The notes under the pieces were generated by a model that ran no database searches, was not told where the DNA came from, and was given only the letters and a program-made list of their open reading frames with translations. This document shows positions 1 through 17,648 of a DNA stretch of 21,049 nt, piece by piece. Made by a program: the position numbers and the translations under genes. Origin of the DNA: a virus. The stretch spans positions 1 through 21,049 of IMG/VR virus record IMGVR_UViG_3300029448_000536. One strand, given 5' to 3'. The stretch's first letter is position 1. Each line of letters starts with the position of its first letter.

Positions 1-331
1 TAGTAGCATCGTATACATATACGGCACCGGTATTACTTCCAGTTATTTCGTCATTAATTGCTCCAACTACTATTTGATTAGAAGTAGCTGCTATAGAATA
101 TCCAAATTGATCATCAGCACCTAAACCGGATGGTGTTAGTTTTGTAGGAGTGGCTGAATAATTGGTTGCATCGTAGATATAGGCTGCACCGGCAGAGCTA
201 TTTACTCCACGTGCTCCTACTGCCAGGTAAGAAGGTTCACTAGAACCTCCACCTCCACCATTACCACCACCGGATAAAGGTCCTACTCTTAAATTACTTA
301 TTATAGTATTACTTCTAAAATTAATTGCCAT
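1..331 (-). CDS. FG-GAP-like beta-propeller tail protein (3' end outside window)
   Basis: An open frame starts at the ATG on 329-331 and runs off the left edge, giving the first 110 residues. The N-terminus (MAINFRSNTIISNLRVGPL) is followed by a Gly-rich linker of about ten residues, then two successive blade-like units. Each ends in an A-x-Y-[IV]-Y-D-A-T strand (AAYIYDAT, AVYVYDAT), and between them lies GADDQFGYSIA followed by an IVVGA strand. The pattern 'D-x-F-G-x-[SA]-[IV]-A ... [IV]-x-[VI]-G-A ... G-[AS]-[VA]-Y-[VI]-[YF]' is typical of FG-GAP/integrin-alpha-type propeller repeats. As the last gene after a run of fibre genes, it is probably a surface-exposed adhesion protein of the tail; that role is inferred. 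No Shine-Dalgarno sequence is visible; the bases before ATG are AT-rich. Confidence 0.75.
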   Translation of the reverse strand, partial: MAINFRSNTIISNLRVGPLSGGGNGGGGGSSEPSYLAVGARGVNSSAGAAYIYDATNYSATPTKLTPSGLGADDQFGYSIAATSNQIVVGAINDEITGSNTGAVYVYDAT

Positions 332-508: not shown

Positions 509-1768
509 TTATAAACTTCTTATGAAAGTTTTAACCGTCCATCCGTTAGAATCGGTGGTGGTAACAAGGGATAAATTACCGGATGAAATATTAGTAGAGA
601 AGGAGAAGGCGGATGTATTACCTATATCGGTAGTAGAAGTATCTATATATCTTGTTTCGTTTTCATCTAGTACGGTCATTAGAGAACCGGCCCGTAAATT
701 ACTACCGGACTGTATATAGTAGTCATAGAATCTAGCATTAAAAGAACTAGACGGTACTTGATTAATTACTGTAGAACCGGAATGAACCGTTATAGATAAG
801 GTATCTAAACTTACGTCATTAATACTGGCAGTACCGGAGATATTAACGTCTCCGTTAACTACGACTTGATTAAAGCTGCCGGTATCGGCAGAAAGACTGC
901 CGGAGTTTAGATTTAAGTCTTCATCAGTTAAAGCTGCAGCTATCTGGGCAGAAGAAGATACTAATGAATTAGCTAGTACGTCTTCGGCAACTTCCATTCT
1001 TATTGCTAAAGAACTAGAAGTAGCACTAAAAGAACTACTAACATCAGATAAAGAACCACTCAAGTCTTGGACTGAGCTACTTACATTTGATATAGCAGAA
1101 CTATTAGTGACTACCTGAGTTGCCAGTGAGCTTGACGTTTCTAGTAAAGAACTACTTACGTTGGTTAAAGTAGTCTGTATATTGGATACTGTAGAGGCTA
1201 AAGAACTAGAAGTTGCAACTAGAGAACTACTAACTGCAGATAAATTAGATTGTATATTTGAGACAGAGGAGGCAAGAGAACTTGATGTTTGAGCTAAAGA
1301 GCTGCTTACATCTGATATTGTACTCTGTACTGTGTTTAAAGAGGTAGCTAAGGAACTACTAACGTTATTGAGGTTGTTTTCTAGATTGTTTATTTCTGAA
1401 GAGAGAGAACTGGATAGAGCTCCTAATTCACTTGAGATATCTCCAATACTGGAGGTTTGAAAAGTTATTAACCCAGACCCAGAATTATATGCAAGAACAA
1501 GATCACTTGAACCTGCCGGGATATTAGGAGCTACCAATGCTCCAGAACCGCTTACCTCTAATAGCTTATCTCCATTCTCACTATTAACTTGAAAGACTGT
1601 ACTAGAATCTATACTTCCCCCGGAAGCAGTAAAATCACCCACAAAAACTTTTGAAGCCGAAACATTGCCAGTAATGTTGGCATTTACAGCCGACATTCCT
1701 GTCGAAATATTTAAACTACTCAGGCTAGCGTTAGATCCACTAACAATAACCTTCTTCCAATTTGGCAT
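509..1768 (-). CDS. Tail fibre protein with Ser-rich coiled-coil repeats
   Basis: 419 residues. The N-terminus MPNWKKVIVSGSNASL matches the start of the 333-residue fibre gene (MAQWKKLIVSG), suggesting a common attachment tip. Residues from about 120 to 260 form a long Ser-rich coiled-coil with hydrophobic residues in heptad spacing, including three copies of V-S-S-S-L-x-x-T-S-S-S-L-A at an exact 25-residue (75-bp) period. The C-terminal third (from about residue 290) returns to short Gly/Ser/Thr beta segments such as GDVNISGTASINDVSL and ends in a compact beta domain. This is the usual layout of a trimeric phage fibre (tip, shaft, distal domain); trimerisation and receptor binding are inferred. 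It is preceded by a 405-bp gene-free stretch and has no clear Shine-Dalgarno sequence. Confidence 0.75.
   Translation of the reverse strand: MPNWKKVIVSGSNASLSSLNISTGMSAVNANITGNVSASKVFVGDFTASGGSIDSSTVFQVNSENGDKLLEVSGSGALVAPNIPAGSSDLVLAYNSGSGLITFQTSSIGDISSELGALSSSLSSEINNLENNLNNVSSSLATSLNTVQSTISDVSSSLAQTSSSLASSVSNIQSNLSAVSSSLVATSSSLASTVSNIQTTLTNVSSSLLETSSSLATQVVTNSSAISNVSSSVQDLSGSLSDVSSSFSATSSSLAIRMEVAEDVLANSLVSSSAQIAAALTDEDLNLNSGSLSADTGSFNQVVVNGDVNISGTASINDVSLDTLSITVHSGSTVINQVPSSSFNARFYDYYIQSGSNLRAGSLMTVLDENETRYIDTSTTDIGNTSAFSFSTNISSGNLSLVTTTDSNGWTVKTFIRSL
1120..1345 (-). repeat. Three 75-bp in-frame repeats in fibre coiled-coil
   Basis: The V-S-S-S-L segment recurs with its conserved DNA starting at 1149, 1224 and 1299, exactly 75 bp apart. 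The encoded unit is about 25 residues, ending T-S-S-S-L-A. Further V-S-S-S copies at about 1030 and 1353 are out of this period. Expansion or contraction in 75-bp steps would keep the frame and change shaft length. Confidence 0.65.
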
Positions 1769-1849
1769 AACTCACTATGTTATATTACGGTTGGTAACAG
1801 GAGATCAAACCTGCCCACTTCCCTTTAGGGCCTATAATACTGTATTAAT

Positions 1850-1860
1850 ATATAAATATA
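1850..1860 (-). promoter_or_regulatory. ATATTTATAT box upstream of 419-residue fibre gene
   Basis: The gene strand reads TATATTTATAT inside a longer alternating AT tract, about 82 nt before the ATG at 1768 and downstream of the terminator at 2073-2137. That placement fits a fresh promoter for the next unit; function is inferred. Confidence 0.4.
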
Positions 1861-2072
1861 TATACTTTTTTACATAACTCCAACTCTTAATAATAAAAAA
1901 ATGAAAAAATCTAAACTAAAGGAAGGTATCCGATCACTCAGTAAAGTATAACCAATAATTTGAAAATATGCAACTCATTTGTATCACTATAAGAACTAAA
2001 GTCTTTCTCACTATCTTAAATATACAAAAAATAATTATTAAGTACAACCTTTATTTTAATTATTTTTTTTAT

Positions 2073-2137
2073 AAAAAGAACCAGTAAGCCCAGCCCCTAG
2101 TGAGCAAAGGCCAGGCTACTGATTGATCGTTCTTTTT
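2073..2137 (-). terminator. Strong (possibly bidirectional) hairpin terminator after 333-residue fibre gene
   Basis: Outer arms AAAAAGAAC (gene strand, 2137-2129) and GTTCTTTTT (2081-2073) pair perfectly over 9 bp. Inside, CAGTA/TACTG and GCC/GGC extend the stem, with more GC pairing toward the loop. The hairpin is flanked by an A-run on one side and T-runs (including T8 at 2063-2070 on the plus strand) on the other. It starts about 36 nt after the stop codon at 2174. Confidence 0.75.
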
Positions 2138-2173
2138 AATAATCCCCATAACGAAGTTTACTACATTATGTCC

Positions 2174-3175
2174 TTAGACGTAAATGTAAATATCTTCGCT
2201 TTCTACTCTTATGTTACCGACTAGGTTAACTTCTGCTGTAGCAGCATCTGTTTCAGTACCCTCATATGCACCTACAATATGGTAAGCAGCAGTCTGAAGA
2301 CCTGTAGCGTTTTGAGCTACTCCACTAGCTATTGCTAGTCTACCTTCGTTACCAGCACCATGATCTTTGTCCCAGAATAATAAGTTACCAGAGTTGACTA
2401 CACCTTCAGATCCACCAAAGATGATACCTGAATCTCCAGTAGTTGTGCTTCCGTCAGAACCGGAGTTAAGAAGGATAAAAGGATCCTGTACTACTAGGTT
2501 AGTTGTGTTAACATAAGTTAAATCTCCTGTTACTGCAAGGTTACCACCTACTGATAGGTCGCCAGTCACAGAACCGGTTGCAGCAGTTAGACCTTTTGTA
2601 ATTGTAACATCATCAGGAAGACCTACTGTTACTGTACCGCCTTCGCCAACTTTGGTGAAATCAGTTGCAACTGTTACTTCGTTTGCTGTACCGGCAAAAG
2701 TTACTGCTGTATCACCTTGAGCAGATTGTCCAGAACCTGAACCAAATACTACAGAAAGGGCAGTGCCGCTACCACCGGCTAAACCAGTACCAACGATTGA
2801 ACTTGAAATATTACTTTCATCTACTGAATTAGCAGTAAGTGCTGCTGTTGATCCAGTAAAGGATAAATCACCAGATACTGCTCCGAATATAGATCCAGAG
2901 TCTACAGATAATGGCGTACCATCACCGCCTAAAAGTCCACCACCAGCAATTGAGCTAGAGATTTCTCTTGCAGTTACTACAGCTGCGGATATATCCGATA
3001 CACCGCTACTATCAATCGTTACATCACCAGTAATACCGCCAAAGATACCACCAGCTATATTTGTAAGTGCGGAACCATCGCCCTTGAAGGCTGATGCTGT
3101 TACCGCATTGTCAACATTTACGTTATTTAGTTCGGCTAAAGCGCCCGAAACTATCAGCTTTTTCCATTGTGCCAT
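2174..3175 (-). CDS. Tail fibre protein (TGS beta-repeat type)
   Basis: 333 residues. The N-terminus MAQWKKLIVSGALAELNNV is the same type as in the 419-residue gene. Residues up to about 130 are Gly/Ser-rich repeats built round I-S-S-S-I-x-G-x-G-L-x-G-G (two copies). The stretch TVGLPDDVTITKGLTAATG, then GDLSVGGNLAVTGDLTYVNT and NLVVQDPFILLNSG, is the pattern common in cyanophage and marine T4-like fibres, where short beta strands stack into a fibre and a V-x-D-x-[FN]-I-x-L element leads into the distal part. The C-terminal 100 residues (from about GDSGIIFGG) form a separate small domain. It is likely an attachment or accessory fibre; the receptor is unknown. A strong terminator follows it. 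Confidence 0.8.
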   Translation of the reverse strand: MAQWKKLIVSGALAELNNVNVDNAVTASAFKGDGSALTNIAGGIFGGITGDVTIDSSGVSDISAAVVTAREISSSIAGGGLLGGDGTPLSVDSGSIFGAVSGDLSFTGSTAALTANSVDESNISSSIVGTGLAGGSGTALSVVFGSGSGQSAQGDTAVTFAGTANEVTVATDFTKVGEGGTVTVGLPDDVTITKGLTAATGSVTGDLSVGGNLAVTGDLTYVNTTNLVVQDPFILLNSGSDGSTTTGDSGIIFGGSEGVVNSGNLLFWDKDHGAGNEGRLAIASGVAQNATGLQTAAYHIVGAYEGTETDAATAEVNLVGNIRVESEDIYIYV

Positions 3176-3259
3176 TTTTACATTACCTAAATTTACTTTG
3201 TTATGTTATAGATTATTAAAAGAAAACCATATATACATACATTTATATATATGCTTCCA

Positions 3260-3270
3260 ATATAAATATC
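3260..3270 (-). promoter_or_regulatory. ATATTTATAT box overlapping the stop of the 463-residue gene
   Basis: The gene strand reads GATATTTATAT, overlapping the TGA stop codon at 3269-3271 and 84 nt before the ATG at 3175. The rest of the 93-nt gap is AT-rich and includes TATATATAAATG (3240-3251). Function is inferred. Confidence 0.35.
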
Positions 3271-4660
3271 ACATGCCGACAAAAAAGTCGCCACTACTTG
3301 AAAAAAATATTCCGCCTGTTGTAATTGTAGGGGTACTAGCGAAATCTGATAGTGTAAAAACTCCTTCTTCATTAACTTTTACTCTTTCACTGCCATTTAC
3401 ACTAACTTGAAAGGTGTCGTCTATACCGTTTAGATCGACAAAGAAAGAACCTGTAATTTTTATATCATTAACCGTATTGAAAAAAGAACCAGTTTGAGTA
3501 AATAACGTTTGGGCATTAATAAGTTCGTAAAAATCTTCACCATTAATGAATAGACTCCCAGACAGTGCTGTAGAACCGGAAATACCGATGTTTTCACTAG
3601 TATTATAAAATGAACCGGTCTGCCTAAAAATACTTTTTTCTCTAACTATACTAAATATGTCGTCTCCTGCAATAGTTAACCCGTTAGCAACGTCTACATC
3701 TCCACCTATTTTTAAATTACCACTTCCGGTTATATCACCGGTAACTAATAAATCTCCGGTATTAGTAGTATTCCCGGCTATAGAAACATTACCAACATTA
3801 GATAGTAGTCCGGTATTGCTAATATTACCGTTACTAGTAGTATTTCCATTAATTGTCAAATTTCCTGTTATAGCTGTTGAACCGGATATACCTATATTCT
3901 CATGTGTATTGTAGAATGAACCTGTCTCTCTAAATACTCCTTGTTCTCTTACTACTTGATAAAAGTCTTCGCCATTCATTTGAATGGAACCAGAAAATTT
4001 AGCTGATCCGGAGACTATTAAGTTACTAACAGTAAGATCCCCATCTAACGCTAGTGCTCTATCTAAAGTTTTACCTGTATACTGATACGCTGAGATGTAT
4101 ATTTTTTCATTAGAGCTTGGTTTATTTGCGTCAAATTCAAGTACTCCAGTCTTGTAATCAAACTGGTAATCGTTTACCGATACTACTGTATTAGCTGCTA
4201 AACTATTAGGGCTAGAAGAAGTGGATTTGAAAACCTTAACATTAAACCCAGGTATGGTATCTTCAGCATTTTGGTTAGAAAGTAACGGAATTGTATATTT
4301 AGGAGATATAAAATTAGTCTGTTGATCTTCGTGTACAAGCTGTGGAGTTACACCTCCGGACGGTCCTCCTGGGTCTAGAAAAAACCATACGTCTCTATCA
4401 ACATTGGATTTGGTCATTTCGTGTCTATACCAGAATTTAAGTACTTCTGTACCCTGTTCTATTATAGTTGCTCCATTTTGTGAACTACCGCTAAACGGTA
4501 AGGAGGCAGAGGGAATAAAAATATCTTGAGTATATACATCTAGAGATCCTATATCAAAAATAGTTGTATAAGCTTCCTGTGAGTTAGTTACGTCCCCGCT
4601 TGTATATCGTCTACCTAGTAGGAATCTTAGAGATTTTTTAGTTACGTCAATTAGTCCCAT
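3269..4660 (-). CDS. Tail fibre/adhesin with three internal repeats
   Basis: 463 residues. It begins MGLID like the adjacent 918-residue gene. Residues 1-200 form a beta-rich head with Y-D-Y-type strands (NDYQFDYKTGVLEF), then TGS/beta repeats (DGDLTVSNLIVSGSAKFSGS). A unit of about 40 residues follows in three copies, starting near residues 229, 331 and 373. Each has the pattern [NA]-G-[ED]-D-[FI]-[FY]-x-[VIL] followed by F-x-[EQ]-T-G-S-F-[YF]-N-T and G-[IS]-[ST]-G-S. Between copies 1 and 2 lies a run of N-x-T/N-T-G strands typical of parallel beta-helices. The start is 2 nt after the 918-residue gene's stop, so the two are probably translated from one message. Role as part of the host-recognition apparatus is inferred. 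Confidence 0.75.
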   Translation of the reverse strand: MGLIDVTKKSLRFLLGRRYTSGDVTNSQEAYTTIFDIGSLDVYTQDIFIPSASLPFSGSSQNGATIIEQGTEVLKFWYRHEMTKSNVDRDVWFFLDPGGPSGGVTPQLVHEDQQTNFISPKYTIPLLSNQNAEDTIPGFNVKVFKSTSSSPNSLAANTVVSVNDYQFDYKTGVLEFDANKPSSNEKIYISAYQYTGKTLDRALALDGDLTVSNLIVSGSAKFSGSIQMNGEDFYQVVREQGVFRETGSFYNTHENIGISGSTAITGNLTINGNTTSNGNISNTGLLSNVGNVSIAGNTTNTGDLLVTGDITGSGNLKIGGDVDVANGLTIAGDDIFSIVREKSIFRQTGSFYNTSENIGISGSTALSGSLFINGEDFYELINAQTLFTQTGSFFNTVNDIKITGSFFVDLNGIDDTFQVSVNGSERVKVNEEGVFTLSDFASTPTITTGGIFFSSSGDFFVGM

Positions 4661-4662
4661 AG

Positions 4663-7419
4663 CTATACAGTTATTGAAATTGAAGTTACCGGAGTTGGAT
4701 CTCCCTTGTACCTTAAAATAACGTAGAATTCGTTATCATACGTATCTAAGTACATACCATCAACGTTTCTTAAAGGCATTGTATAATTTGTTCCGCTTTT
4801 AGTACCACCAATATTTCCGTAAAGATCTATGCCATCGGAGAAAGGATTCTTAAAATAATCTTGCGATTCATTTAGTGCGAGTATGTTGGATATTAAATTT
4901 GAAGGATCATATATTCTAGCTCTTGATAAAGAAACATTAGTTCCACTACCGTTACCAGAACTTTTAAAAAGTATTGCTGCAGCTACTCCATTTGTACTAG
5001 ATTGCCACTCAATAAGGGTCTTCCCAACGTCTATAGCTACTGAGAGTTTATTACCAGAAGTTCTAAATCTTCTTATATAGTACTTATAAGTTCCACTACC
5101 AAAACTAGAAGGAAACCAATATCCGTAATTACCGCCCGGGTCAACTAGATATCCGGGTTTTACCTGTAGGTCATAATCTCCTAATACTGCATCTCCGTTA
5201 TCGTTAGTAGCATAGGTGTCCGATACAAATGCATCTCCGGTAAAAGTAGTAACGTTATTATTTAGCTGTATTCTAAAATCTTCACCAGTAAACTGTTCGG
5301 ATGTACCAGTTAAACTACCTCCGTCGTACCCTTGAGCTCTAGAATATACAATTAGGCTACCGCTATCGGCAGACTTACCTATTAACGAGCTATCGAACAG
5401 ACTTAGGTTAGAAGTAGTTTGAGTTTGAGAAGAGTTTTTCCAATTTCTGCCTTCCGCTTTAAAAGATAAGTTATAGTTAGAAGACTCTTGAGTTGATCTG
5501 TTCTGGGTTGTAGTATTTACGTTACCGGTAAAACTAAAACTAAAAGAAGACGAACAGTAAACTATATCATCAATATGCGGTAAATCTCCAACTGATCTCT
5601 GTGTAGACTTGTCCGCGGATAGTACTCCTCTTATATTAGCATCGTTTGTCTGTACTCCGTTACTGTTTACAGATACAGTCGTATTAGTCAGTGTAGTAGA
5701 GCCTACATTATTCCATTCATTTGTAGGATTAGAAGTAGTCAGTACCGTAGAAGCATATCCATATGCCGGATCGAAGCAATTTGCCACTTCTACCGAATAG
5801 TCAAATGCATAAGAAAGAGACTGTAGGTAGGGAGCTCCGCTAAGAGATCTAGAAGTAGAAGCAAAAGAAGTTCTATTTAAGTTTACATTAGATATTGCAG
5901 CAGTCGGAGTGCCTGAAGTGATATCAGATGGGATGTCTCCGGTGTACAGATAGAATCGAGTACTACTGTCGGCAGCGCTTTTAAAAGTAAAGTCTACTTG
6001 AGATCCAGATTTCAATCCTACCTTTATATCATATGTCTTATAATATCCACTTGCTGATATATTAGCTCCGTCTGTTTGATTACCTGTATATTTTCTACCG
6101 TTAATAGGACCGGAAACGTTGTTAAAGTCCCCGTCCTGAAATGACGACGGTATTACAGCTGGTTGACTAGATAGTATTTCGCTTAAGATTAAACCATTAG
6201 AGCTACCAAAAGTTGATCTGGTGTAATCTACGGATGCTGTAGTATTAAAGGTAGCGTCGGATTCGGGGTCTTGATCGTTATAGTTATCACTAAAGGATTG
6301 AGAAGCAAAAATACGTACTGTAAACGGTACCGGTTGCCCTGAGTTTAAAGGACCAAGACCGAAATAATCTCCATTAGAACTTGCATTAGTACTACCGCCG
6401 GCATTTGCTGTAACGGTAAATGTATTTGTACTAAAATTGTTTTCCCGTTGAATAGTACTACTTATTCTAGAAGCGTAAGAACCGTGAAAAGGATTAGTAC
6501 CTGTATCGTTTCCGTAGGTACCTCTGTCTGAAGTTTGTAACCACCCCTTGGCTAGTAGGTAGTTTTGAACTTGTCTATAAGATTCAGTTGCCGTACTACT
6601 TATGTAAGATGAACCTGTCCAGTTAATAGATAGCTTTGCATTTTCGTAACTAGAACCTAACACACCATTAAATAAACTACTTTTACTTGTAGTATTGCCG
6701 AGGTTATGAGTAGTTGAAACGTTATTCCAATACTTAGTGTTAGGAGTTGTATCAGCTACGTCTAATGAAGAACTTAGTACTCCGGCTATAAATCTACCTA
6801 TTTCTGAAATATGAGTACTATGGTTAAATCTTTGAAAGTAAGATCCTTCAAGTCCGGTTACCCAGGGAAATATAGTTGGATACCCTACAGTAGTATTGTT
6901 AGATGTAATAGCAGTAGAACCGGTATCAGATGCAACAAAAAATGCAGAACCTGAAACTGCTAAGGAATTACTAACAAATAACGAACCAGTATATGAATGA
7001 GTATCTGTTAAATCATCTCCAAATATAGTAGAACCGGATGAAAAGGATTGAGTTATAATACTAACAGAAGAAGATACAATAAACCTCTGGGCTACTACAT
7101 CTCCGTCAACTGTTAAATTTCCGTAAATATCCTGATTACCCTGAAATACGTTAGAACCTGTAGTTGCTATCTTAGGTCCTATAAATACTTGGGCGATTTT
7201 ATCAGCCGATTGAGTTACATGAAGTCCGGTTGAACTGTCAAAGACTGTTTCACCCTGTACACCGGTTAACTGTACTCCATCTAAACCAGACCCAGAGACT
7301 CTAGTACCGGAAGCATCATTTCCGTTAACAAATAGCGAACCGGTGATACTTAAAGAACCTGTTAAGTAGCCGTCGTCCTTTAATTGAGGACTAATCTGTT
7401 TCCAATCTATTAAACCCAT
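4663..7419 (-). CDS. Large tail fibre/adhesin, 918 residues
   Basis: Residues 1-165 are phage-fibre-like: MGLIDWKQISPQL, then TGSLSITGSLFVNGN and several NLTVDGDV/SGSAFFVASD-type strands. The remaining 750 residues are Ser/Thr/Asn/Gly-rich and predicted mostly beta, with few charged residues and almost no Cys (one Cys-containing strand near 545, another near 625). Two related segments centred on W231 (YWNNVSTTHN) and W569 (EWNNVGSTTLT), each followed by N-T-T and later G-V-L, suggest a duplicated domain. The C-terminus (about 790-918) has many aromatic residues (YGYWFPSSFG, YKYYIRRFR, EFYVILRYKGDP) and may be the receptor-facing domain. I recognise no enzyme motif. It follows the gp15-like gene by 24 nt; no Shine-Dalgarno sequence is visible. 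Confidence 0.7.
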   Translation of the reverse strand: MGLIDWKQISPQLKDDGYLTGSLSITGSLFVNGNDASGTRVSGSGLDGVQLTGVQGETVFDSSTGLHVTQSADKIAQVFIGPKIATTGSNVFQGNQDIYGNLTVDGDVVAQRFIVSSSVSIITQSFSSGSTIFGDDLTDTHSYTGSLFVSNSLAVSGSAFFVASDTGSTAITSNNTTVGYPTIFPWVTGLEGSYFQRFNHSTHISEIGRFIAGVLSSSLDVADTTPNTKYWNNVSTTHNLGNTTSKSSLFNGVLGSSYENAKLSINWTGSSYISSTATESYRQVQNYLLAKGWLQTSDRGTYGNDTGTNPFHGSYASRISSTIQRENNFSTNTFTVTANAGGSTNASSNGDYFGLGPLNSGQPVPFTVRIFASQSFSDNYNDQDPESDATFNTTASVDYTRSTFGSSNGLILSEILSSQPAVIPSSFQDGDFNNVSGPINGRKYTGNQTDGANISASGYYKTYDIKVGLKSGSQVDFTFKSAADSSTRFYLYTGDIPSDITSGTPTAAISNVNLNRTSFASTSRSLSGAPYLQSLSYAFDYSVEVANCFDPAYGYASTVLTTSNPTNEWNNVGSTTLTNTTVSVNSNGVQTNDANIRGVLSADKSTQRSVGDLPHIDDIVYCSSSFSFSFTGNVNTTTQNRSTQESSNYNLSFKAEGRNWKNSSQTQTTSNLSLFDSSLIGKSADSGSLIVYSRAQGYDGGSLTGTSEQFTGEDFRIQLNNNVTTFTGDAFVSDTYATNDNGDAVLGDYDLQVKPGYLVDPGGNYGYWFPSSFGSGTYKYYIRRFRTSGNKLSVAIDVGKTLIEWQSSTNGVAAAILFKSSGNGSGTNVSLSRARIYDPSNLISNILALNESQDYFKNPFSDGIDLYGNIGGTKSGTNYTMPLRNVDGMYLDTYDNEFYVILRYKGDPTPVTSISITV

Positions 7420-9421: not shown

Positions 9422-9723
9422 TATGCCCTCTCTACTGTCTTGGTAGCTATCTCAAAACGTTTAATAATTGATGATTTCATACTTTCTTGACGGACGAACT
9501 TAAAAGCTGATTGAGGATCAGATTTAGTACGTACTTTAACGTCGTACATAGAAACATTACGACCTTCTTCGTTACCGGCAGTATTAACAATAGTAACTCC
9601 TTTAACTGCTCTAATTACGTCAGCAACATCCATTACTGAACCTTCGTCACTGTAAGTAACTCTTACGAGTCCTTTAAAGATCTTATTGTCTTCTTCTAAT
9701 AATAAATCTACTAAACTAATCAT
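9421..9723 (-). CDS. Small protein of unknown function in neck block, 100 residues
   Basis: Not confidently recognised. After a short acidic N-terminus (MISLVDLLLEEDN), the sequence alternates strand and helix: GLVRVTYSDEGS, then VADVIRAVKGVTIVNTAGN, VSMYDVKVRTKSD, and QSAFKFVRQESMKSS. This beta-alpha-beta-beta-alpha order, with 'ADVIR-x-x-x-G-V-T', resembles an ACT/ferredoxin-like small domain, which is an inference from pattern only. It sits between gp13-like and gp14-like genes with 1-nt stop/start overlaps on both sides, so its expression is tied to neck assembly. It could be a virion component or an assembly factor. Confidence 0.75.
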   Translation of the reverse strand: MISLVDLLLEEDNKIFKGLVRVTYSDEGSVMDVADVIRAVKGVTIVNTAGNEEGRNVSMYDVKVRTKSDPQSAFKFVRQESMKSSIIKRFEIATKTVERA

Positions 9724-12701: not shown

Positions 12702-14264
12702 TTATACAGTCTCTAGGTCAGATACGAAGATCTTACCGTAGAATTCTGGACGGATCATTTTCTTAGCATAACGAGTCATTAGACCTTTACGTGGTGTGAA
12801 GGTTTCTGGATCGTATACTAATGGAGTCATCATTAGAGGTACATATGGAGCATATACTGCACCTGTTTCTAGGAACTGTGAACCACGGTAACCTAAAAGA
12901 ACGATGTTCTCAGTCATATATGGGTTTTTGTAAACTTGGAAACGGCTGTTTAGAGAACCAACTCTCTGTACACCCATTGCAAAGTCCATCTTGTCGCCGT
13001 CAGTAGAAGCAGCATATCCAGGAATAGATTCTAGGATAGTAGCAACTGTAGGAGAAACTACTGCGAAGTTTGCACCACCGCGTAGAGTTTTCTGATGGAT
13101 TTTGTTAGATACTTTTTGCATTTTAGTACCTAAAGTTTGGAACCACTGACCCTGTGTATTGTAGAAGTCAGAAGAAGCACTAGACCAAGCTGTACCAGTC
13201 CAAAGTTTGTTGTTTTCAGCTGACCATCTTTCAGTAGTAGCAGCATCTTGAATAAGCATATCTAGAATCTCTAGATCGATTTCCATTGAGATGTACTCAG
13301 AAAGCATAGAAGTTAATTCTGCTTCAGCATCTACACTATGGTAAGCGTTAAGATCCTGGGCGAATTCTGGAGTCCACTGAGCTTTTAGTTTTCTAGTTTT
13401 AGCAACGATAGCTTCAGAAGCTAGTTCTACGTTTACTTCAGGAATCTTTAATGTTCCAGTAGTATCTTCGAAGTCACCACGGCTGTTGTCAGCTGGTTGG
13501 TTGTGGTATACAATTGAACCAGTTAAAGAAGTATCGACAGTAGTTGCTGATTTTGCAATTACAAAAGTAACATCATTACCAGATACAGAAGTTAACTCTG
13601 GGTTAGTTACATCAATAGATGCAGATAGGATTCTGAAAGCACGAACGCCTTTAGAGTCAAATCCAGATGGCATAGTTTTAGTAATTAAGTAGAAATCAGC
13701 AGGATCTTTGTCAGCGTCATAAGCTAGAGAAGCAGATGTAGCAGCTGAAGCAGCTTCTTGTACTGCTACAGAAGCAGAATTGATTGAGTAACCGAAACGT
13801 CCGGCGCCATAAAGACCACCAGAAGGATCTACGTCAGCAGCCATTTGGCTGTTTGCTGTAGATACGTTTCCGTACATGTTGTCACCGCTTGAGAATCCAC
13901 CTGTAGATGAACCGTATTTGAAGTCTAAGTAAAATACTAGACCTGAAGGGAGGTTCATTGGTTGTACAGAAACGAAGTCTTTAGCTGCGATTTGAGCAAA
14001 TACTTTACGTACTAATGGTAAAGCAACGCCTGCCCATTGTTCGCCAGCACCAGCAGAGAAAGATCCACCTGTACCTGTATTTGATTGCTCGGCTACGATT
14101 TGTGTTGCTTGGTTTTCCAAGATAGTAGCCATCATAGTTTTTTCAGTTCCTTCTAGACCTTCTAGAAGTCCTGATTGTGTCCATTTGTCGGCTAATTTAG
14201 CTGCATCTTCTTGTAGTACTTTGAAGTTGCTGCTTGAGCCTTCCAATAAGTTGTTTAATTCCAT
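12702..14264 (-). CDS. 23: Major capsid protein (gp23)
   Basis: 520 residues, almost the same as T4 gp23 (521). The N-terminal propeptide includes ATILENQ (residues 46-52), which parallels T4 'AKIFENQ'. Then come LPLVRKVFAQIAAKDFVSVQ and PMNLPSGLVFYLDFKYGSS, the gp23 hallmark 'VQPM-N-x-P-[ST]-G'. The second hallmark is EVNVELASEAIVAKTRKLKA, QWTPEFAQDLNAYHSVDAEA, followed by ELTSMLSEYISMEIDLEIL. The C-terminus (RKGLMTRYAKKMIRPEFYGK) also fits. It forms the hexamers of the head, with the propeptide removed by gp21. A possible [IL]-x-E cleavage site is I48-L49-E50; the real site may be later. It lies 16 nt after gp22, so the scaffold and shell are probably on one message, and a strong terminator follows. 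No Shine-Dalgarno sequence is visible. Confidence 0.95.
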   Translation of the reverse strand: MELNNLLEGSSSNFKVLQEDAAKLADKWTQSGLLEGLEGTEKTMMATILENQATQIVAEQSNTGTGGSFSAGAGEQWAGVALPLVRKVFAQIAAKDFVSVQPMNLPSGLVFYLDFKYGSSTGGFSSGDNMYGNVSTANSQMAADVDPSGGLYGAGRFGYSINSASVAVQEAASAATSASLAYDADKDPADFYLITKTMPSGFDSKGVRAFRILSASIDVTNPELTSVSGNDVTFVIAKSATTVDTSLTGSIVYHNQPADNSRGDFEDTTGTLKIPEVNVELASEAIVAKTRKLKAQWTPEFAQDLNAYHSVDAEAELTSMLSEYISMEIDLEILDMLIQDAATTERWSAENNKLWTGTAWSSASSDFYNTQGQWFQTLGTKMQKVSNKIHQKTLRGGANFAVVSPTVATILESIPGYAASTDGDKMDFAMGVQRVGSLNSRFQVYKNPYMTENIVLLGYRGSQFLETGAVYAPYVPLMMTPLVYDPETFTPRKGLMTRYAKKMIRPEFYGKIFVSDLETV

Positions 14265-14280
14265 TGTATTAATGATAAAA

Positions 14281-15393
14281 TTATTTAATGATTCCAGCTA
14301 ATCTTTGCATTCTACGAACTTGCTCGCTTACTTCAGAGATTACCTCTCCTTTAGTAGAGTTGCCAGCTGCTTTAGAAGCAAATGATTTATGCTCTTTAAT
14401 GTTAGATTTTTCAGATTTAACTGAGGTTATATTCTCTGCTACTGTTTCGTATACAAGTTTTACTTCTTTAACTGTTTCTGCTTTATCAAAAGTAGCAATA
14501 ATGTTTACTTTTTGTGATTCAGATAAGTTATTAGCTTTGAATATTTTGTTTACGTAAAGTAGTTTTGAATTAAGAAGATTTACTTCTGAAAGTTCGTTGC
14601 GAAGAGTTTCAATAGTAGATAAAGCTTCGTTAAGTTCAGTAGATTCCTCTACTTCTTCACTTACTTCTTCTTCCATTTCATCTTCGTGCTTACCTTCTTC
14701 CATTTTTTCTTCGTCGTCATGTTTCATTTCTTCAACAGACTCTTCAGAAACTTCTTCTTCTAGATCTTCATCTAGGTCTTCAGAAAGTGATTCGAGTTCA
14801 GCAAGAAGTTCGTCAAGGTTGATTTCTTCATCGTCGGCTGCGACCATGTCTTCCATCCCACCTTCTTCGTCTTCCATACCAGGCTCTTCACCATGTCCCA
14901 TTTCTTGGGCTATGATATCACGGATTAAAGCTTTAAGATCGTCGATTTTCATATCTTCAACCTCTTCTGCTTCTTCCTCACCTTCTTCGGCTTCAGCTTC
15001 GTCTTCAGATTCTTCTGATTCATCCTCAGCTGGTTCATCTTCTTCAGCAACTGGTGCTTCTTCTACTGCTAATTCTTCGTCCATATCGTCGTCATGTTTT
15101 GCTTCGTCCATGTCTTTGTCATGCTTAGCTTCATCCATGTCGTCGTCATGTTTAGCTTCGTCCATCTCGTCTTTATCGTAAGAACCTTCTTCAACGGATT
15201 CTTCTTCAACTACTTCTTCTTCAACAGTTTCTTCCATTTCCTCAGCTTCCATTTCCTGGAGCTTGGCTGCAAGCATGTCTTTTAAGTGTGGGGTTAAAGA
15301 TTCTTCCATGACGTCCTTAGCATTTGAGATGGCAGCTTCACGAACAGCTTTAGCTTCAGCAATAGCTTGCTTAAATATGTCTTGACTTGCCAT
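14281..15393 (-). CDS. 22: Prohead core scaffolding protein (gp22-like)
   Basis: 370 residues against 269 in T4 gp22. Three parts are visible. An N-terminal helix (residues 1-45, DIFKQAIAEAKAVREAAISN, then LTPHLKDMLAAKLQE) is typical of gp22-like scaffolds in marine relatives. A very acidic middle (about 46-250) holds three tandem 9-residue units AKH-D-[DK]-D-MDE. A C-terminal coiled-coil (NELSEVNLLNSKLLYVNKIF, KANNLSESQKVNIIATFDKA) ends in basic RRMQRLAGIIK. Scaffolds of this type fill the prohead and are degraded by gp21 before packaging. Residues 152-164 (DLKALIRDIIAQE) resemble the N-terminus of the 77-residue core-block protein. The length is increased by the acidic repeats. It lies directly upstream of gp23 and behind a terminator-like hairpin with a TATAAATA box. 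Confidence 0.88.
   Translation of the reverse strand: MASQDIFKQAIAEAKAVREAAISNAKDVMEESLTPHLKDMLAAKLQEMEAEEMEETVEEEVVEEESVEEGSYDKDEMDEAKHDDDMDEAKHDKDMDEAKHDDDMDEELAVEEAPVAEEDEPAEDESEESEDEAEAEEGEEEAEEVEDMKIDDLKALIRDIIAQEMGHGEEPGMEDEEGGMEDMVAADDEEINLDELLAELESLSEDLDEDLEEEVSEESVEEMKHDDEEKMEEGKHEDEMEEEVSEEVEESTELNEALSTIETLRNELSEVNLLNSKLLYVNKIFKANNLSESQKVNIIATFDKAETVKEVKLVYETVAENITSVKSEKSNIKEHKSFASKAAGNSTKGEVISEVSEQVRRMQRLAGIIK
15076..15156 (-). repeat. Three 27-bp tandem repeats in gp22 (AKHDxDMDE)
   Basis: Copies occupy 15076-15102, 15103-15129 and 15130-15156, with a decayed fourth copy to about 15180. Each encodes nine acidic residues (A-K-H-D-[DK]-D-M-D-E). Related but non-tandem KHDDEE and KHEDEMEE segments occur further on in the same protein. 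Confidence 0.85.
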
Positions 15394-15443
15394 AATGTTT
15401 ATTGGGTAATTCTACGTTTATTAGAAACGTAATAGATAGGTTT

Positions 15444-15478
15444 AAAAAAAAATATTTATACTGTATGGGAGACAGTAT
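15444..15478 (-). terminator. Terminator-like hairpin between gp21 and gp22
   Basis: On the gene strand, ATACTGT (15478-15472) pairs with ACAGTAT (15464-15458) around the 7-nt loop CTCCCAT. After five further bases (AAATA) comes a run of nine T (15452-15444). The spacer is longer than usual, though weak AAT/ATT pairing can shorten it. It could limit read-through from the head-core block into gp22, or be an RNA-processing hairpin. Confidence 0.6.
15453..15460 (-). promoter_or_regulatory. TATAAATA box (T4-late-promoter-like) upstream of gp22/gp23
   Basis: The gene strand reads ACAGTATAAATATT; TATAAATA equals the T4 late promoter core. It lies 59 nt before the gp22 ATG, overlapping the descending side of the hairpin at 15444-15478. 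It is a candidate start for the scaffold-capsid transcript, which needs high expression. Confidence 0.42.
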
Positions 15479-15484
15479 ATTCCT

Positions 15485-15494
15485 ATATAAATAT
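15485..15494 (-). promoter_or_regulatory. ATATTTATAT box after gp21
   Basis: The gene strand reads TATATATTTATATAGG, about 21 nt after the gp21 stop and 91 nt before the gp22 ATG. Unlike most copies of this box, a terminator-like hairpin stands between it and the next gene. Confidence 0.4.
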
Positions 15495-15514
15495 ATAACC
15501 TTTAAGAAAAACGA

Positions 15515-16126
15515 TTAATCTATACTACACTCGCAAGTAGTTGCACAAAGTACTTCTCTAATGGTAGAATGTACTTTAGCATATCTGTCTTTTTTCATAA
15601 TAGCAGATTCATTTAAACCGCCTGGGGCCATAAAAGCTCCATGTGTAGATGGGTTAGAAACAAAGTCCCAACAAACTAGTTCAAAATCATCTTGAACCAT
15701 TAAATGGCCTTCATTTGTCTGCTGTACCGAACCTGTGCCCCTGGATGAAATACCTATTGTATGTCCGTCCATTATAATATTCTTAACTATGTTTCCTGAA
15801 GGGGTGTTAAGTAGCTGTACTGTGCCCATTACATCATTTCCTTTCCACCACACTTCTTTTACTATGTGAGAGGCATTTCTTAAAGATACTATGGGGGAAT
15901 CTGGATGGTCTAATTCTCCGTAAGCATTACCTACTTCGATAAAGTTTTGAGCGTATTTCTTAAGTTCTCTTTCTAGAATAGCTCTTTTATATACTCTACC
16001 ATTTTGATTCTCGGCTTCAGCTCTTTGTAGAATACCTTTTACTTCAAAGATACCAGGTTTGGTCTTACTTTCGGTAAGTGTGGTAATAGGTTGAAAAGGT
16101 ATTACGTCTATAATTAAATTTGACAT
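15515..16126 (-). CDS. 21: Prohead maturation protease (gp21-like)
   Basis: 203 residues, close to T4 gp21 (212). The family motifs are clear: N-G-R-x-Y near 42-46, GELDHPDSP with the catalytic His at 74, and IGISSRGTGSV with the catalytic Ser at 127 or 128, followed by DDFELVCWDFV, which carries the acidic third member. This is the herpes-assemblin-like serine protease fold. It is activated inside the prohead, cutting scaffold, core proteins and the gp23 propeptide, classically after [LI]-x-E. Its ATG overlaps the stop of the 430-residue gene by 1 nt. The C-terminus is unusual, with three Cys in LCATTCECSID. No other Cys cluster is present (one Cys at 152). Confidence 0.93.
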   Translation of the reverse strand: MSNLIIDVIPFQPITTLTESKTKPGIFEVKGILQRAEAENQNGRVYKRAILERELKKYAQNFIEVGNAYGELDHPDSPIVSLRNASHIVKEVWWKGNDVMGTVQLLNTPSGNIVKNIIMDGHTIGISSRGTGSVQQTNEGHLMVQDDFELVCWDFVSNPSTHGAFMAPGGLNESAIMKKDRYAKVHSTIREVLCATTCECSID

Positions 16127-17418
16127 TAGACTACCTTACCGTCTAGAGTAAATGCTTTCTGTTCAGTTTCTTTTTCGTCTAATCGTCCGTAGTCCCCACT
16201 TTTCATTTTTGCAGCAAAGGAGGGGCTTGTCTGTTTGCCTTGTTTACCGGCAAAAGGATTTACATAAAAGTCAAACGAAATATAAAGGTTACCGTCTCTT
16301 ATGTCTATGTTAACGTTCTTTAAGGTATTAATAAAGTACCTTCTTAGTCCATCTGTAAAGAATCTTTTAGGGTTACCGATAGTTTTGTCGCGTAATTCTT
16401 CGGCATCCATATCTCCGGGCACTACCGTAATCTCGGCTTGTGCTAGTTCGGCGTCTTCTTGATGGGAAAGTTTAACGTCAATTTTCTGTACAGTAGGATC
16501 CACTTTTTTAATTTCGTCAGCAACTTCAGGTTCGTAGCTAGAAAGGTCTACAGTGCCTTTTATATTTTCGTTAACTTTTATTTTATCTTCTGTTAGTACT
16601 TTAACGATAAGCTTTTTAAAAGACTCTTTTAATCCAAACCTAATATCTTCTGAGGTGTCATCTGTCTCCATGACTGCGTCTTGTTCGTCAAAGAAGGTAA
16701 GCTCATTAGAAACGTATTTAATAAGATCGTTCTTAGCATGCTCGATCATACCAGGTTCGGTCATAGGACCGGCTTTCCAATCATCCCAGGCTTTCTGTAT
16801 TAGTTTAACACCTTTATCTAAATCAGGGCCCATTATCTCAACGTAACCGCCGTTTATATAGTCGTCTTCTTTTACTACTTTACCGCCTTTACTTTTGGCA
16901 CGTCGGGCTTCATCGATACTTTCTCTAAGTTCTGCTTTCTTTAAACCATTGTCTTTATCTACGGCATTCTTTTCTTCTGCAGGAACCATTACGTCTTTTC
17001 TTTTCTTAGGTACTCTAGTAGATTCTCCACCTAAAAGGCTTAGGTAGTAGTTTCTATTTTTTTCTAGATTTTTTATAGCTTTATCTTTAGCCTTTAAATA
17101 ATCTTCTTCAGTAAAGTCTCTATGAACTGTATTAAAACCTTTTTTCTCTAATTCGTAATCAACTCCTCTTTCAATATCTTCAATAGAAAATTTATCAGCA
17201 GGTACTACTCCATTATCATACTCAGGCATTTTTTCTTCCTTATACTTATCTAAAGCCTCAAAAATCATTCCCTTATTTTTCAGAATAGCAACGGTATCGT
17301 TATATCCGTTGTACTGTGTTATAATGTTTGGGTGTGCAAGGCGGGCATCTCTAACGAATTGCTTCTTACTATACTCACCTTGTAGTACTGCGTTGTATTT
17401 TTCTGTAAGTGTTCTCAT
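16126..17418 (-). CDS. Probable prohead core protein of unknown function, 430 residues
   Basis: No family recognised with confidence. The N-terminus (MRTLTEKYNAVLQGEYSKKQ, FVRDARLAHPNIITQYNGYN, DTVAILKNKGMIFEA) looks like a conserved, folded module. A Lys/Glu-rich helical middle follows (about 60-260). At 265-278 is ESFKKLIVKVLTED, similar to helix motifs in gp22 and the 77-residue protein. The C-terminal 150 residues form a mixed alpha/beta domain (IKKVDPTVQKIDVKLSHQED, AELRDKTIGNPKRFFTDGLR, VNIDIRDGNLYISFDFYVNP). It overlaps neighbours by 4 nt and 1 nt between portal and protease, the place occupied by core genes 67 and 68 in T4. That position and the charge suggest an internal core protein processed by gp21; this is inference. 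Confidence 0.8.
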   Translation of the reverse strand: MRTLTEKYNAVLQGEYSKKQFVRDARLAHPNIITQYNGYNDTVAILKNKGMIFEALDKYKEEKMPEYDNGVVPADKFSIEDIERGVDYELEKKGFNTVHRDFTEEDYLKAKDKAIKNLEKNRNYYLSLLGGESTRVPKKRKDVMVPAEEKNAVDKDNGLKKAELRESIDEARRAKSKGGKVVKEDDYINGGYVEIMGPDLDKGVKLIQKAWDDWKAGPMTEPGMIEHAKNDLIKYVSNELTFFDEQDAVMETDDTSEDIRFGLKESFKKLIVKVLTEDKIKVNENIKGTVDLSSYEPEVADEIKKVDPTVQKIDVKLSHQEDAELAQAEITVVPGDMDAEELRDKTIGNPKRFFTDGLRRYFINTLKNVNIDIRDGNLYISFDFYVNPFAGKQGKQTSPSFAAKMKSGDYGRLDEKETEQKAFTLDGKVV

Positions 17419-17648
17419 TGTAAGTAGTCGAATAATTTAGTGTGTGATGGACGTTTAGGTCTTTCAGCCTTTTTATATCCTATCTTTTTTAAAAATTTAG
17501 TTGCTCGATTATCTTTTTTATTTTTTGAGAAGGCATAAGGAGTAGCGTATTGAGCACCAGTACCAGGTGTAAATGTTGCTCCGGTACCTGTAGTAGAGAT
17601 TTCATCAAGTACTTCTCGTACTAAGGACCTTAACTCACTTTTTCTCAT
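17415..17648 (-). CDS. Small probable core protein with capsid-targeting-like N-terminus, 77 residues
   Basis: Not assigned to a named family. It starts with an amphipathic helix, MRKSELRSLVREVLDE, ending in L-D-E, which fits the [LI]-x-E cut sites of gp21 proteases. A Gly/Thr/Pro linker follows (TGTGATFTPGTGAQYATPYA), then a strongly basic C-terminal half (KNKKDNRATKFLKKIGYKKA). The last eight residues are TKLFDYLQ, also present in the 93-residue neck-block protein. It overlaps both neighbours by 4 nt (ATGA), and AGAGG precedes its ATG. Size, charge and position correspond to T4 genes 67/68 (small core proteins), but sequence identity to them is not evident. Confidence 0.75.
   Translation of the reverse strand: MRKSELRSLVREVLDEISTTGTGATFTPGTGAQYATPYAFSKNKKDNRATKFLKKIGYKKAERPKRPSHTKLFDYLQ

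Follow-up and report, generated by a model that had tools for sequence, protein, structure and literature searches.

Do the similar amphipathic helices found in three prohead proteins of a virus act as a signal that brings proteins into the head? The question arises in positions 1 to 21,049 of IMG/VR record IMGVR_UViG_3300029448_000536 (hereafter the window; the fragment is viral, 21,049 bases long, and its main genes all lie on the minus strand), for which a preliminary description reported such a helix in a 77-residue protein, in a gp22-like scaffold protein and in a 430-residue protein. We find that the basic form of the motif is an N-terminal peptide of 16 residues, with the consensus MKKSELxxLIxEVIxE (the class-1 tag), which heads many otherwise unrelated proteins. 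Judged from its sequence, the tag probably marks cargo for loading into the head and would then be clipped off. The most likely function is that of a core-targeting propeptide, a reading that we hold with reasonable confidence; it would work like the capsid targeting sequence (CTS) of phage T4, without detectable kinship to it.

All three peptides were present at the places originally described (Table 1). The literal pattern proposed for them, [KR]xL[IV]xx[IV][IL]xxE, fits the gp22 peptide only, the other two having a single residue before the Glu. A search of the 21 proteins predicted in the window for its core, [KR]xL[IV]xx[IV][IL], gave three matches and no more, each within the gp20-gp23 prohead block, compared to 0.12 expected in composition-preserving shuffles (0.017 with a following Glu). 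Because the pattern had been derived from the same three peptides, this count alone is post hoc, and we therefore relied on independent tests. A matrix was built from tags on other IMG/VR contigs, each of 60 clusters of protein bodies contributing one (the 60-tag matrix). By this measure the N-terminus of the 77-residue protein ranks first in the window with 28.7 bits, and residue 148 of gp22 ranks second with 15.9 bits (per-protein shuffle p 0.010); the gp22 segment MKIDDLKALIRDIIAQE aligns gap-free to the N-terminal tag from its Met onward.

The motif is also kept among the homologs of all three proteins, as the preliminary description had anticipated for a genuine signal. The 77-residue family has 348 confirmed relatives in IMG/VR, of which the best 80 were kept. 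M1 and E16 are invariant in all 41 aligned members, E12 is conserved in at least 90%, and insertions sit immediately past E16. In a cultured relative of the window, Flavobacterium phage vB_FspM_immuto_2-6A (immuto; host Flavobacterium sp. LMO8), the homolog immuto26A_199 starts with the tag MKKSQIVKAVQEVLEE, including E16; immuto26A_191 and _188 carry tags as well. An AlphaFold2 model of the 77-residue protein, built on the family alignment, predicts a helix at residues 3-19, with a mean predicted local distance difference test score (pLDDT) of 83 for residues 1-10; past the helix there is little confident structure (mean pLDDT 66.6). In the 430-residue family the form LKE..K..I...L.E is kept. 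Its 33 aligned members all have E265 and K268, and each of L263, K264, I271, L275 and E277 is conserved in at least 90%, at a mean column identity of 19%; the N-terminal domain is conserved too. The AlphaFold2 model of this protein is poor (mean pLDDT 55.7) and places the motif within a predicted helix at residues 255-277 with pLDDT below 50. In gp22, all 35 sequences of at least 180 residues score highest at the internal copy, with 10-19 bits.

Outside the three families the tag behaves as a module. When a matrix of the 77-residue family was run over 906 proteins of related loci, 15 matches of at least 16 bits were obtained compared to 0.6 expected; 4 of these were 77-family members that had passed the filter, leaving 11 against the same expectation. 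Among 1353 proteins of 17 clade records there were 44 matches of at least 12 bits (2.3 expected); 31 of the 44 fall at residues 3-8, and of these 31, 16 belong to the 77-residue family. With the 60-tag matrix, 40 of the 1353 N-termini reached 12 bits (17 of the 40 from the 77-residue family), and shuffled N-termini gave none. A DNA pattern for MK[KR]SxL... retrieved at least 120 stretches from IMG/VR, and in combination with a second version lacking the forced final Glu at least 133 distinct tags. The class-1 tag heads at least 100 proteins of 45 or more residues outside the 77-residue family as filtered, the bodies of which form at least 60 clusters (blastp, 1e-3), 49 of them singletons among the matches listed; one of the 60, that of L188, is related to the 77-residue family. 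For T4, the targeting sequence has been reported from just a few internal proteins. As in a CTS, then, a short N-terminal peptide stands on otherwise unrelated proteins, a placement not shared by the gp22 and 430-residue copies, which are internal. The preliminary view of a motif present once at an N-terminus and twice internally is accurate for the window, but the basic form is the N-terminal tag and the internal copies are exceptional.

The tagged proteins include a serine hydrolase (L159; PF06821, 1.3e-22) and a protein with a pterin dehydratase domain (PF01329, 9.9e-19), which an HHP motif suggests to be L280; the remaining family matches of tagged bodies are mostly weak or to families of unknown function. 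Basic DNA-binding cargo as a rule was rejected, the mean net charge of the bodies being about 0. Some tagged proteins (G011:24785, G015:2325, L198, L280, G016:11731 and L197) consist of shuffled short basic modules, namely LWANIxAKR, PGILKKRLGKLSCSKVR...YLNYHC, KGGKRLGTHxTRK, CWxGY and RPGRVKKxGASCKG. One of them, a metallopeptidase-like HEIEH protein (G016:11731-12708), has LWANI, an internal KKSKLKEIILEVLYE copy and then a PGILKKR module, as if a cut could release that module.

The end of the tag resembles the site of a gp21-type protease. Of the 88 tags from the scan without the forced Glu, 59 have E at residue 16 and 4 have D; 75 contain [LIVM]xE in the stretch of residues 13-24, and 15 contain [LIVM]xD. 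The tag thus ends in hydrophobic-x-Glu, with Glu preferred over Asp. The preliminary description had placed such a cut site at the motif, which fits the tag but does not extend to the gp22 copy, where LxE is lacking. Some homologous bodies, moreover, bear different N-terminal peptides. Examples, with a slash at the joint, are MTKQIKLKSLLKE/GFAWERKAGKP and MKKQILNEKFSRMQKLAGLLKE/GYAWERKAGKP, MSLINEIKQILSE/VTKVNFKGHKF and MKEQLLETVKEVLNE/ATKVNFKGHKF, and MKLAHIILE/SDETQLG and MKKSQLQEIIREILNE/NPEQMLG. With query tags that end in hydrophobic-x-Glu and joints at residues 7-30, the best pair has [LIVMF]xE at most 3 residues from the joint in 11 of 14 families, compared to 2.1 expected from the remainder of these same proteins. 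Several of the 14 families are doubtful as exchanges, among them L153 with an over-extended start and L195 and L494, whose tags are similar. A less strict N-terminal class, in which a short run of hydrophobic residues closes with x-Glu (e.g. MKLLDIIKE, MADNFNLRQFLTE), was found in 127 of 1626 proteins from G001-G016, immuto and the divergent contigs, class-1 tags included, compared to 28.7 expected. The window gp23 is itself likely cut after E59 (QIVAE/QSNTG), and divergent gp23 sequences have a QL[IT]xE-type site at the corresponding place; this hydrophobic-x-Glu site may correspond to the point at which T4 gp23 loses its 65-residue N-terminus.

Two features absent from the preliminary description connect the motif further with gp21 and gp22. 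The C-terminus of gp21 forms a helix with the hydrophobic spacing of the tag (for example IIRDILTEIG, IIRDILSETR and LIYEILNEIK), often with LxE near the end. Of 10 divergent gp21 C-termini, 9 contain the core (0.13 expected), as do 21 of 36 from the clade (0.28 expected), counts that come from non-independent kin. The other feature is a second tag shared with gp22. The C-terminus of gp22 has the form RMQ[KR]LAGII, which is the wording of an N-terminal class-2 tag, RMQKLAG[IL]IxE. In the 1626 proteins the class-2 motif has 27 matches compared to 0.3 expected, 24 in gp22 C-termini and 3 in other proteins. An IMG/VR scan with the DNA pattern MQ..LAG..IxE, in which the Glu is forced, returned at least 118 distinct proteins; among the matches listed, 112 of 118 have the motif no more than 20 residues from an ATG, and the tag heads at least 74 body clusters (109 proteins compared). 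The S77 peptidase was found in 10 of 20 long class-2 contigs, and in 7 of the 8 that are at least 95 kb. Both tags thus end in hydrophobic-x-Glu and both are matched by a segment of gp22, a parallel suggesting that cargo attaches to the core through copies of scaffold segments.

The genomic setting of the tags was compared with that of the prohead genes. The window encodes an S77 gp21 alongside the tag, as do 16 of 16 long 77-family contigs. Among 24 tagged contigs of 41-369 kb, 10 have the S77 gp21, 10 have gp23 above the cut-off and 11 have at least one of the two, compared to 2 of 11 in a small control of random contigs of at least 40 kb; all 5 class-1 contigs of at least 95 kb carry both S77 gp21 and gp23. 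A tag lies within 1.5 kb of gp21 in 5 of the 10 gp21-bearing contigs (0.56 expected under rotation, p 0.0001) or, counted per tag, for 5 of 19 strict tags (0.70 expected, p 0.0023). The distances were chosen after the places had been seen, and the excess fades at larger distances. In divergent T4-like blocks, tagged genes stand between gp20 and gp21 or past gp23, where contig G024 has three in tandem. By the 60-tag matrix no N-terminus of at least 12 bits was found among the 278 predicted proteins of T4 or the 159 of RM378, and 1 of 348 was found in P-SSM2 and 1 of 194 in HTVC008M (first 140 kb), so that these four are essentially without the class-1 tag. When named T4-like phages and random contigs were scanned with a DNA pattern, the result was 0 of 19, but the scan missed immuto as well, because the immuto tags have Ala where the pattern forces other residues, and the matrix scan was therefore used for scope instead. 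A 20-residue consensus had no tblastn match in cultured phages, which is uninformative, as a query that short finds little.

Several observations weigh against a propeptide directed to the head. The S77 peptidase was not found in 14 of the 24 tagged contigs of 41-369 kb, many of them possibly fragments. Of the 19 strict tags on contigs that carry gp21, only 5 are 1.5 kb or less from that gene, and in the 297-kb contig G026 the distance exceeds 100 kb for all five strict tags. The family of immuto26A_157 (L091:32526-32945 and relatives; 130-150 residues with a class-1-like N-terminus) adjoins baseplate genes outside the head block, which is awkward for a purely head-directed tag. DNA primase-like N-termini without the Glu end (L158:2615-3586 and L166:323-1294, labeled from a similar annotated immuto gene) exceed 12 bits, so that the cut-off lets in false positives. 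Within the window, the 430-residue copy reaches no more than 9.2 bits (p 0.028), equal to a 284-residue protein (9.2) and near gp20 (8.3); it therefore rests on conservation and not on its own score. The gp22 copy ends in IIAQE, with Ala at P3, so the LxE pattern is absent there, and it is weak in 8 of 9 divergent gp22 sequences. The C-terminus of the window gp21 scores only 0.6 bits. One could conclude from the baseplate-side family and from the many tags distant from gp21 that the tag helix recruits proteins elsewhere than to the head core, be it to tail or baseplate assembly, to a phage compartment, to a host protein or to a degradation adaptor, and that the Glu, a residue common all along such helices, belongs to the helix and marks no cut. 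We consider this unlikely given that tags are concentrated near gp21, that copies occur in gp22 and in the gp21-neighbor families, that E outnumbers D at residue 16 (59 to 4), and that exchanged peptides meet their bodies at an [LIVMF]xE joint.

A more limited objection is that the window peptides are unrelated amphipathic helices whose likeness is accidental, and that the signal is confined to the N-terminal tag on the 77-residue family. It draws on the 430-residue copy, which scores no better than helices of the 284-residue protein and gp20, and on the gp22 copy with its missing LxE and its weakness in divergent sequences. Both copies, however, are strictly conserved in families that otherwise diverge, and the gp22 of contig G031 retains its copy at 16.3 bits, which makes this account rather improbable; chance as the sole cause of the motif was rejected by the shuffles together with the conservation. 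Alternatively, a 5' gene segment could have been spread by recombination or gene duplication while the peptide itself is functionless, and tandem tagged genes with near-identical starts are indeed seen in G026 (139632, 139859, 140143) and in G024. The codons argue otherwise. Across the 60 body clusters, identity at third codon positions is 0.34, near the 0.31 of unaligned codons, whereas residue identity is 0.61, and position 4 is Ser in 60 of 60 clusters, encoded via six codons. DNA-level copying as the whole cause of the spread was rejected on this basis; the comparison largely refutes a functionless segment, to which we give very little credence. The core-targeting idea of the preliminary description gains much support from the conservation in three families, the generality of the N-terminal peptide, the clustering with gp21 in divergent T4-like contigs and the hydrophobic-x-Glu end; the gp22 copy does not fit its cut pattern.

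We propose that the motif is an attachment helix for the prohead core and that the N-terminal peptide of about 16 residues, MKKSELxxLIxEVIxE, serves as a modular propeptide. During assembly the tag helix would join the gp22 core, and the prohead would thereby enclose the protein that carries it; gp21 would then cut past the hydrophobic-x-Glu end and free the mature cargo within the head, from which it could be ejected. As gp22 bears its own copies of the tag helix and of the second tag (the RMQKLAGII C-terminus), cargo may bind by imitating the scaffold. A broader version of this model is more tentative, and we would place it somewhat short of even: a large group of T4-like phages, jumbo phages included, may mark internal and ejected proteins with N-terminal copies of the gp22 LIRDIIxQE helix and RMQKLAGI tail, each ending in hydrophobic-x-Glu, and the ejected proteome, enzymes included, would then be readable from N-termini alone. 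If true, a peptide code on scores of unrelated families would allow head-carried proteins to be predicted from sequence in uncultured T4-like phages. Such proteins enter the host first, and anti-defense and takeover proteins are expected among them. The copying of scaffold segments offers a concrete hypothesis for the binding of cargo to the core, and it is directly testable in immuto, which is cultured and has the same gene order.

Table 1. Motif copies, tags and genes of the prohead block, with class-2 examples from other contigs (positions in the window unless a contig is named).
Feature	Position	Residues	Strand	Remarks
77-residue tagged protein (STTGTGATFTPGTGAQYATPYAF... body)	17415..17648		-	between gp20 and gp21
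Class-1 tag MRKSELRSLVREVLDE of the 77-residue protein	17601..17648	1-16	-	proposed propeptide, putative cut after E16
77-residue protein peptide SELRSLVREVLDE		4-16	-	match of the preliminary description
430-residue protein, mosaic build	16126..17418		-	directly after the 77-residue gene; 80 matches in related loci
430-residue protein internal copy LKESFKKLIVKVLTE	16588..16632	263-277	-	family conservation
430-residue protein peptide SFKKLIVKVLTE		266-277	-	match of the preliminary description
gp21 prohead protease (peptidase S77)	15515..16126		-	presumed cutter; PF03420 1e-33, phrog_207 3e-49
gp21 C-terminal helix YAKVHSTIREVLC	15545..15583	182-194	-	hydrophobic spacing as in the tag
gp22-like scaffold (acidic core protein)	14281..15393		-	position between gp21 and gp23
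gp22 internal tag-like copy MKIDDLKALIRDIIAQE	14902..14952	148-164	-	15.9 bits
gp22 peptide DLKALIRDIIAQE		152-164	-	match of the preliminary description
gp22 C-terminal RMQRLAGIIK	14284..14313		-	wording of the class-2 N-terminal tag
gp23 major capsid protein	12702..14264		-	PF07068 3.4e-80
MISLVDLLLEE, start of a 100-residue protein	9691..9723		-	possible short-form tag; weaker case
Class-2 tag loci, examples	L089:8321-8785; L339:9524			

The gene order of the window is the end of terL, gp20 (PF07230), the 284-residue protein, the 77-residue protein, the 430-residue protein, gp21, the gp22-like gene, gp23 and a PhoH-like gene (labeled by position and by the annotation of its immuto counterpart), beyond which lie adaptor and tail-fiber-like genes. 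The order in immuto matches, with immuto26A_197 as gp20, _198, _199 (the 77-residue homolog), _200, _201 as the protease, _204 in the gp22 position and _205 as gp23. Neither the 77-residue protein nor the gp22-like protein had a Pfam or PHROG match, and the 430-residue protein had no usable one (a single weak PHROG match, 0.054); the N-terminus of the gp22-like protein is common to gp22-position proteins on other contigs. Set against the T4 gene order, the place of the 77-residue protein between gp20 and gp21 would fit a small core protein of the gp67/gp68 type, with no family match to accompany it. Homologs of the 430-residue protein (e.g. L059, L063, L087, L050 and L044) carry inserted stretches of DHDGDGDIDxDDYMAAKDKAIKKA, which presumably resemble calcium-binding dockerin or EF-hand loops. 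Proteins similar by eye to the 100-residue protein start with MKLLDIIKE, MKLTNIISE or MIKLSQIITE. At positions 509-7419 the window encodes large tail-fiber-like proteins rich in SxSL/GSL repeat segments.

Our searches of the open-access literature, by words of the tag and by CTS with T4, Bacteroidetes or T4-like, returned no paper, title or abstract on the tag, and comparison was made with four known systems. The cited sections on T4 give the core as gp22, gp21, the internal proteins, gp67, gp68 and Alt, with a CTS usable on foreign proteins (PMC3012670, PMC9958956, PMC9024508, PMC9026906); they describe propeptides of 10-19 residues and a CTS that is sufficient for the enclosure of foreign proteins (PMC9026906, PMC9958956). 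Processing is described there as depending on CTS residues 8 and 10, Asp at 10 blocking it while still allowing targeting (PMC9026906). As far as these sections go, the class-1 tag resembles the CTS of IPI-IPIII and Alt in being a short N-terminal peptide on unrelated proteins, with a gp21-type hydrophobic-x-Glu end, in genomes with an S77 gp21. It differs in being a longer fixed 16-mer with a KKSEL start, in heading far more proteins, in occurring also inside gp22 and in having no sequence kinship, none of the T4 proteins reaching 12 bits; packaging by it is what we infer here. For T4 gp21 itself, C-terminal processing is expected and propeptides are suggested to be prohead targeting signals in the part of the source that treats them (PMC9026906), and the gp21 described here likewise ends in a tag-spaced helix, often with LxE near the end; that of the clade, however, often ends in ILRA without E, and cutting of the tail is putative. 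In phage P1, N-terminal residues of DarB are described as sufficient to transport a reporter to the head, so that by description the two share an N-terminal head signal, with no consensus among Dar proteins reported in the section cited (PMC9024508). In phiKZ and SPN3US many head proteins are matured by a protease that cuts after Glu, according to the section cited (PMC9026906). There the motif is S/A-x-E and not hydrophobic-x-Glu, and the phages are of another lineage; the likeness, again by description, is head maturation by cleavage after Glu.

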